Origin: Angelakisella sp.
GTDB taxonomy: Bacteria; Bacillota; Clostridia; Oscillospirales; Ruminococcaceae
Direction of reading: 5' to 3'
NCBI GenBank assembly: GCA_022794295.1
Contig: JAAWEO010000003.1
Span: forward strand, 1 to 34,276
Length of the DNA stretch: 34,276 nt
The position numbers and the translations under genes are program-made. Each line of letters starts with the position of its first letter. The stretch's first letter is position 1. The notes below the pieces were generated by a model. The model ran no database searches and was not told where the DNA came from. It saw nothing but the letters and a program-made list of their open reading frames with translations. Below are positions 3,639 through 31,667 of this stretch, one piece after another.

Positions 3639-3814
3639 CCGGGGTACCTCCTTATGGGACACAGAAAAGCCCGGAGCGCCTTCTCTGCGCTCCAGGCCCT
3701 TTTCTTTGACATTGGGCTCTGGTTTCATTATACCGGTTTTGGGTGCTTTTTACAAGACCCCTCTTTTTTTGGGGGGCTGTGCTTGGGGGCCGCCTGGGGG
3801 CGGCCTGTAGAGGG

Positions 3815-3849
3815 TCGAATGGACCGGCCTTATGGGCCGGTCCATTCGA
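3815..3849. repeat. Perfect 15-bp inverted repeat
   Basis: The arms TCGAATGGACCGGCC (3815-3829) and its exact complement (3835-3849) flank a 5-base loop. There is no T-run on either side, so this is not a typical intrinsic terminator. Confidence 0.8.
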
Positions 3850-3863
3850 GGGGGGGCGGTTGT

Positions 3864-3893
3864 TGCAAAACACCCCACTGGGGTGTATTTGCA
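3864..3893. repeat. Inverted repeat with one bulge
   Basis: TGCAAAACACCCC (3864-3876) pairs with GGGGTGTATTTGCA (3880-3893), leaving a single bulged base. It is the second in a row of hairpins in this gene-free stretch. Confidence 0.7.
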
Positions 3894-3922
3894 GGTTGGT
3901 TGGGTGCGGGGCGAGCAGGCTT

Positions 3923-3955
3923 CTCCTTTCTTTTTTTCTTTCAAAAAGAAAGGAG
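3923..3955. repeat. 13-bp A/T-rich inverted repeat
   Basis: CTCCTTTCTTTTT (3923-3935) is exactly complementary to AAAAAGAAAGGAG (3943-3955), with a 7-base loop. The arms hold anti-Shine-Dalgarno and Shine-Dalgarno-like sequence, but no ORF with family character follows. Confidence 0.75.
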
Positions 3956-4168
3956 CAAAGAAAAATGCGCCCTCCGGTAAGATGCGGGGGAATTTCGCCT
4001 GTTGCGACGGGCGACCAGGGCGCCGCCCTGGACCTGCCACCCTTTGAAAAGGGTGGACCTAAACTTTAGACCCTACGGGAGGTTGTGCGAGGCGAAAGGC
4101 GGTACCTGGAGTCTTGGGCTGACAGGAGTCACCTCCATCCAGCCTGTCAACGGTAGGGGAATCGTTTC

Positions 4169-4277
4169 GCCCTGTGCTCGTCAGGACTCCAGGCACCCAC
4201 TATCCCTTTCGCACACCGTTAAGGCGCGTTAGCGCCGGGTAAGGTCTGAGGGTCTGTCAGCGGCCATCAGGCCGCCG
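4169..4277 (-). repeat. Structured intergenic repeat, copy A
   Basis: Read on the minus strand, this copy aligns with 31482-31579 over about 100 bases. It has a first hairpin GCGGCC-tgat-GGCCGC, then GACCC...TACCCG, a second hairpin GGCGC-taac-GCGCC followed by TTAACG and TGTGCG, then TGCCTGGAGTC and finally GGGC. Relative to the other copy, the second hairpin has one exchanged base pair and a different loop. Its motif CGGGTAAGGT (plus strand) matches the CGGATAAGGT end of the copies at 33.9-34.3 kb. Confidence 0.7.
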
Positions 4278-13068: not shown

Positions 13069-13111
13069 ATGACCTCCTGTTTTCATCATCTTAATCTCTG
13101 CCGGTAAAGTC

Positions 13112-13137
13112 CTTGGGCGTGTCCCAAAAGTCTTGGC
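13112..13137 (+). repeat. Solo end of the MITE-like element
   Basis: The sequence GGGCGTGTCCCAAAAGTC plus TTGGC matches, with two or three differences, the minus-strand right end of the element at 1006-1101. No matching inverted partner is visible nearby, so this is a single end or a decayed copy. It lies between the divergent cat-like and LUD-domain genes. Confidence 0.55.
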
Positions 13138-26804: not shown

Positions 26805-26866
26805 AAAGGCACCGGCGGCGGGGGCTGTCCCTCCCCCCGGAAAAACGAGGAAACGGGGGTCAGACA

Positions 26867-27934: not shown

Positions 27935-28083
27935 AAAATGCGTGCAGCCCCTCTCCTTCTACCTTCTCCGCCTGGGGGTGATCCTCTGCTGCGGGGCCAG
28001 GGCGGGCTCTCCTTCCGGTAGCTGGCCCGGGGGAACGAAAGGGGCGGGAGGCGGGGGCTTTTCCCCCGCCCCGGAAAAAAAAC

Positions 28084-31459: not shown

Positions 31460-31481
31460 CAGACCCTAAGACCCTACCCGC

Positions 31482-31579
31482 CGGCGGCCCGGTGGCCGCT
31501 GACGGACCCTACCCGCCGCTTCGCGGCTTAACGCTGTGCGGGGCTTGGCTTCTGCCTGGAGTCTTGGGCGGCAGAGGGC
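31482..31579 (+). repeat. Structured intergenic repeat, copy B
   Basis: Aligned with copy A (4169-4277, minus strand) for about 100 bases: hairpin GCGGCC-cggt-GGCCGC, GACCC-TACCCG, hairpin GCCGC-ttc-GCGGC followed by TTAACG and TGTGCGG, then TGCCTGGAGTC and GAGGGC. It lies just after the bactofilin stop. The second hairpin is the one that recurs, as its complement, at 33951-33965. Confidence 0.7.
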
Positions 31580-31667
31580 ACGGCGATATAGCCTCCCTTT
31601 TTCGGGCTGGGGAGCGGGACGGGGTAATTTTTCCGGGGGACCGGATCACAACAAAGAAACCTTAGGT

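Follow-up and report, generated by a model that had tools for sequence, protein, structure and literature searches.

Repeat copies in the window

The stretch of DNA that was analysed (34,276 nt, hereafter the window) corresponds to contig C124 in a draft genome of Angelakisella sp. with 2.39 Mb in 307 contigs and a completeness of 86%. The UvrC protein of this genome is 83–85% identical to those of Angelakisella sp. ABMPRH_154_5_1 and Oscillospiraceae S33_Bin3, and 69% identical to that of A. massiliensis. Repeats were found in gene-free DNA at several points of the window: copy A lies on the minus strand between the gene of a 112-aa protein and uvrC, copy B lies on the plus strand behind a bactofilin gene, and the repeat stretch of C and D begins directly behind the tex stop codon.

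A first-pass annotation, made from the letters of the window, had aligned about 100 bases of A (4277–4169, minus strand) with B (31482–31579, plus strand) and had proposed a dispersed, structured, gene-free repeat family. We reproduced the alignment as stated. The Smith–Waterman score of A against B was 100, whereas 200 dinucleotide-preserving shuffles averaged 24 and did not exceed 42. The similarity of A and B thus stood, whereas the size of the unit did not: the full element at A is a non-coding chain of ~490 nt with about nine hairpins (window ~4276–3788, minus strand), and the aligned part of A is only its 5′ part.

Copy A (3788–4276) is full-length, and all of the following features are read on the minus strand. 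It begins with the head module GGCGGCCTGATGGCCGCTGACAGACCC (4250–4276), an optional hairpin which is missing or tandemly repeated in other copies and whose TGA codons terminate some of the upstream ORFs. The core (4068–4249), delimited by a 33-copy alignment and its helices, is an imperfect palindrome of ~190 nt with the inverted ends AGACCCTAC and GTAGGGTCT and the inner arms TGCCTGGAGTC (4195–4185) and GACTCCAGG (4113–4105). It includes the second hairpin of the first-pass annotation, GGCGC/GCGCC (4223–4236), for which a swapped base pair had been claimed. The swap is real: of the 33 full copies, 20 have C-G and 12 have G-C at this pair, and 28 have C-G and 5 have U-A at the adjoining one, so the stem shows compensatory exchanges among copies.

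Behind the core, AAAGTTTAGG (4058–4067) marks the start of an arm of three hairpins that recurs across the order; its AAAGTTT is invariant in an alignment of 24 arms. Hairpin 1 (4037–4056) combines the invariant loop TTTTCAAA with a stem that varies in a compensatory manner. Hairpin 2 (CCAGGGCGGCGCCCTGG, 4015–4031) and hairpin 3 (TCGCCC..GGCGA with the loop CGCA, 3995–4014) entered the same covariation test of 24 arms. A T-rich hairpin region (3923–3972) follows, in some copies a possible, weak intrinsic terminator. The alignment of full copies then gives the hairpins TGCAAATACACCCC AGT GGGGTGTTTTGCA (3864–3893) and TCGAATGGACCGGCC CATAA GGCCGGTCCATTCGA (3815–3849), and the last hairpin AGGCCGCCCCCAGGCGGCC (3788–3806) is where the similarity between copies ends. 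Aligned full copies share the ~190-nt core from CAGACCC to GTAGGGTCT and then ~300 nt more, closing with AGGCCGCCCCCAGGCGGCC; in the 8 full copies this right-hand part is 86–96% identical. A fold of the 462-nt element body as single-stranded DNA gave z = −10.7. The inverted ends of the core are present in the own-genome element, for which we saw no clear terminal inverted repeat (TIR) of the whole element.

Copy B (31460–31614, plus strand) starts directly past the bactofilin stop codon (31459) and is truncated and rearranged. Its first ~60 nt correspond to the 5′ end of the element, after which the sequence continues in the other arm of the palindrome (core positions 24–57, in opposite orientation). 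As the 5′ end is kept and the sequence then switches into the other arm, B is not a simple copy.

Copy number and subfamilies

A BLASTN search of the own genome, which the first-pass annotation had suggested as a check, returned many further copies. Copy A matched at least 44 places, mostly at 77–87% identity, a lower bound as the best 40 of 187 first-look candidates were scored, and copy B matched at least 56 places. An exact scan with the core box GACTCCAGGCANYC found 108 places in the own genome and 0 for the reversed control. In the congeners the same box occurred 19 times each in G001 and G003 and once each in G006 and G009, and the exact scan did not find it in the other five congeners searched. 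Both sister species have their own diverged sets of the element.

Since the region is both GC-rich and palindromic, one may ask if A and B resemble each other by chance. We give this reading practically no credence: no shuffled sequence came near the observed alignment score, the 108 core boxes stand against none in the control, and similarity among the copies spans 190–500 nt at about 77–96% identity, including the ~300 nt beyond the core. The copy number and the position outside genes support the proposed dispersed family.

There is also a second subfamily that shares the right part of the core and differs in the other half. Copies also enlarge by tandem duplication of the head and by recombination, and therefore not every copy needs to be the product of a transposition. 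In the relative G001 (L062, L081) the interior of the element contains a hairpin module CCTCCCT...GAGGGAGG, a further mosaic piece. Many contigs of the own genome (e.g. C152) end within copies, and these repeats are apparently one of the main reasons why the assembly is fragmented.

C, D and other repeats

C and D had been regarded as relatives of A and B on the basis of the second hairpin and of a common CGG(A/G)TAAGGT end. This kinship proved wrong. In the comparison with the A/B core the hairpin link reduces to one 14-nt palindrome, present in C only, and the CGG(A/G)TAAGGT link is owed to a base at which A deviates from the family consensus, CGGGTAGGGT. The stretch 33890–34276 matches a different set of sequences: the genome holds at least 43 large copies, some of them in tandem, and their unit measures ~265–277 nt. 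Given the different copy set, the single shared palindrome and the aberrant link base in A, we assign C and D to a separate repeat family.

Two other repeats were observed in the window. A 27-nt inverted repeat (GCCAAGACTTTTGGGACATGCCCTAGG) at 1077–1103 and 13111–13137 is 93% complementary, lies near gene ends and is possibly another dispersed repeat. A GC-rich repeat of 41 nt at 26805–26845 and 28038–28078 is 76% identical between its two copies, which are 1.2 kb apart.

Placement behind genes and insertion sites

We determined the placement of the element at 50 sites, with nested sub-copies merged, using heuristic gene calls from a simple, purpose-built codon-model caller. At 34 of the 50 sites the gene 5′ of the element was in sense (one-sided binomial p = 0.008), and 16 copies were antisense or lay near gene starts. 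At 27 sites a sense stop codon was located within ~50 nt of the element, and roughly a dozen of these sites have an ORF that terminates within the element itself.

The cysK gene illustrates the latter case. In four congeners it ends with STPLF, a few codons and a stop, and a clear terminator hairpin lies behind it in three of them. In the own genome (L021:572-1516 / L216) the native last codons and the stop are lost; the frame enters the element after residue ~309 and ends inside it with STPTRR, the stop codon being supplied by the element. As the sequence behind the own cysK differs from that in G001 and G003, the site may also mark a rearrangement.

The A site provides an empty counterpart. 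In Angelakisella sp. ABMPRH_154_5_1 and Oscillospiraceae S33_Bin3 the 112-aa gene is likewise followed by uvrC; ~20 nt and the uvrC promoter separate the two genes, and the element is absent. The promoter-like site adjoining the insertion in the window (3727–3755, minus strand) is conserved in these two sister species. In principle the absence of the element there could be a loss.

We found no target-site duplication (TSD) in the own genome; the best flank repeats scored 7–10, no better than mismatched pairs. In the relatives G105 and G196 (L143, L144, L160, L181) some elements with the AAAGTTT arm have direct repeats of ~11–38 nt on either side, which are whole or partial terminator hairpins and differ from site to site; those at L143, L144 and L160 measure 16–38 nt and are whole hairpins.

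One way to read the placement is that the element has been domesticated as a boundary, with selection keeping those copies that stop read-through into the next gene. The sense position behind stop codons would agree with this, as would the A site, where the upstream gene is separated from the uvrC promoter. However, the 16 copies that are antisense or near gene starts do not fit, the sites differ between species and the terminator signal is weak, and we consider such a role highly doubtful.

A three-hairpin arm across the order

A pattern scan for the arm of AAAGTTT and hairpins found it in 18 of 219 genomes of the family, representing 13 of 126 genera, and 0 times when the pattern was reversed. 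It also occurred in three more families of the order (four in total), again with a reversed control of 0 throughout. The own genome (G000) has 59 arms, G156 has 58, and G229, G139 and G529 have 25–26 each.

In hairpin 1 of the arm the loop TTTTCAAA is kept on nine different, fully complementary stems, and for this stem the 3′ arm lay outside the search pattern. Across the three hairpins of 24 arms 94.9% of the cells were paired, compared to 80.6 ± 1.1% in shuffled data. We counted 66 two-sided changes, against 18.7 ± 3.3 in the shuffled data and at most 10 with the partners slid, in a test where the structure was read from the same sequences; related sequences inflate the cell counts, so the independent events number fewer than 66. 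One-sided changes were almost absent (4 cells) and one-sided G-U changes very few.

In the relative G229 (L195-L197), complete elements of 744–798 nt without an ORF carry the ~95-nt arm at either end in inverted orientation and enclose another inverted pair, GGCGCAATTCACAT / ATGTGAATTGCGCC. In G240 the elements measure 282–357 nt and have the ends AAAGTTTAGG/CCTAAACTTT. The whole element has clear inverted ends in G229 and G240; in the own-genome copy they are not clear.

We also considered phage or plasmid cargo, and rejected it as the full element had no match in phages or plasmids. Two first viral pattern matches resemble ordinary low-GC coding sequence, and the arm pattern occurred in only 3 viral contigs. 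Two unannotated phage records from human faeces matched part of the arm.

DNA palindromes or RNA structure

The hairpins could be conserved either as RNA or as DNA. If the element were a structured 3′-UTR RNA, it would be co-transcribed with the upstream gene and act as a terminator, an RNA-stability element or a small RNA. The sense orientation of the upstream genes and the short distance to their stop codons both agree with this, as does the RNA fold of the core (z = −5.8). At cysK the element stands where the congeners have a terminator hairpin, and L027 has terminator-like T-rich hairpins in the sense direction. RNA pairing should, however, favour wobble cells on one strand. With the helices of the own-genome core chosen regardless of strand, we counted 72 G-T and 80 A-C cells, that is no strand preference, and we rejected an RNA-level constraint of this kind. 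The scarcity of one-sided G-U changes in the arm also speaks against an RNA, terminator-like sites hardly exceeded the shuffled counts, and the A site in the sister species manages without the element. The first-pass annotation knew of no named family with this layout, and in agreement Rfam returned no family at the gathering threshold and two sub-threshold matches far below the gathering scores. Overall we judge a functional 3′-UTR RNA to be unlikely. A hammerhead-like reading of CTGACGA...GAAAC in copy A was dropped, as no cleavage-site triplet was seen in A.

The compensatory stems, the few one-sided changes and the balance of G-T and A-C cells together favour palindromes at the DNA level over an RNA fold. 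Judged from the aligned sequences, hairpins kept as DNA palindromes would fit better than an RNA fold. Palindromes that are exact at this level with almost no one-sided intermediates would suggest a hairpin-templated correction of the two arms.

Comparison with known systems

Among the described repeats one close comparison is with REP/BIME/REPIN sequences (PMC3733652), which are likewise high-copy, palindromic, intergenic, built from mosaic modules and placed behind genes. GTAG- and CGTC-tagged REPs are palindromes of 20–40 nt that lie mostly downstream of coding regions and sometimes give an ORF its stop codon (PMC3733652). The present element could accordingly be a system of this type moved by a RAYT (Y1, HUH) transposase, or a derivative of IS200/IS605. 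It shares with the GTAG-tagged REPs the occasional supply of stop codons, it lacks a TSD in the own genome, and its relatives have inverted hairpin arms. The layout differs, though: the unit has ~490 nt instead of 20–40 nt, with a core of ~190 nt, about nine hairpins and an arm with invariant loops, and its GTAG stands at the core end and not directly at a short hairpin, so that neither the size nor the tag is that of a REP. The REP paper (PMC3733652) contains none of the words Clostridi-, Ruminococc-, Faecalibacterium and Firmicutes.

The enzyme searches weighed further against this origin. There was no Y1_Tnp match in the own genome (in the 86% complete assembly), nor in G139, G170 and G240, which are 96–99% complete and have 25, 12 and 20 arm copies, respectively. 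G002, on the other hand, had 15 Y1 matches and zero copies of the element. With Y1 absent from several carriers and frequent in a genome free of copies, a RAYT or IS200 origin is very improbable. The Y1_Tnp search thus linked no transposase to the element family.

Integron attC sites were rejected as well, since the ends are CAGACCC / GGGTCT or AGGCGGCC and not GTTRRRY / RYYYAAC. An integron cassette array is equally inappropriate: A and B point in opposite directions, and the 27 kb that separate them hold ordinary genes.

Bacterial MITEs such as BOX, RUP and SPRITE of pneumococcus (reviewed in PMC10969869) are another parallel. Like the present element they are short, non-coding, multi-copy, dispersed, intergenic and strongly folded, and the inverted arms in G229 and G240 add to the likeness; the own genome differs by the lack of a TSD and by element ends that are not simple TIRs. 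The element also falls into the general class of folded intergenic repeats covered by a survey of stem-loop-containing repeats, with 92 families in 40 genomes (PMC2267715). In the parts of that survey consulted the clostridia named are Clostridium perfringens and C. tetani, and nothing there corresponded to the present family. The open-licence papers searched contained no published description of the family, an absence that is weak evidence.

A probable non-autonomous mobile element

We conclude that A and B are probably copies of a dispersed, non-autonomous DNA element of a mobile type (MITE/BIME-like), with hairpins kept as DNA palindromes. As the arm recurs across the order, the element gives the impression of a small mobile DNA family that has not been described before, and not of a chance pattern. 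This reading builds on the observed copy number, boundaries, empty sites, placement, compensatory stems and inverted arms in the relatives; we infer active transposition, recognition through the hairpins and an enzyme other than a Y1 transposase. The element would have spread in its own species as new copies entered the short gaps that follow genes, and its arm (AAAGTTT-hp1-hp2-hp3) would be a lineage-specific version of the order-wide arm. An enzyme acting in trans may recognise the arm by its invariant loops (TTTTCAAA and CGCA) and the AAAGTTT box, and the same enzyme would then insert the new copy. Selection against copies in promoters or gene bodies may explain why they accumulate behind stop codons. 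Only tentatively do we extend the proposal to an order-wide superfamily of non-coding mobile elements with a conserved three-hairpin, invariant-loop arm, moved by a non-Y1 enzyme that reads folded single strands or cruciforms; we would regard this as possible rather than probable.

For the genome itself the consequences are twofold: the copies re-write the 3′ ends of genes, stop codons included, and they probably explain why the assembly breaks at so many places. The covariation of the arm provides a precise handle for finding the enzyme. Should the arm be mobilised by a single enzyme throughout an order of gut bacteria, this would be a new hairpin-acting route of DNA mobility in genomes without known hairpin transposases.
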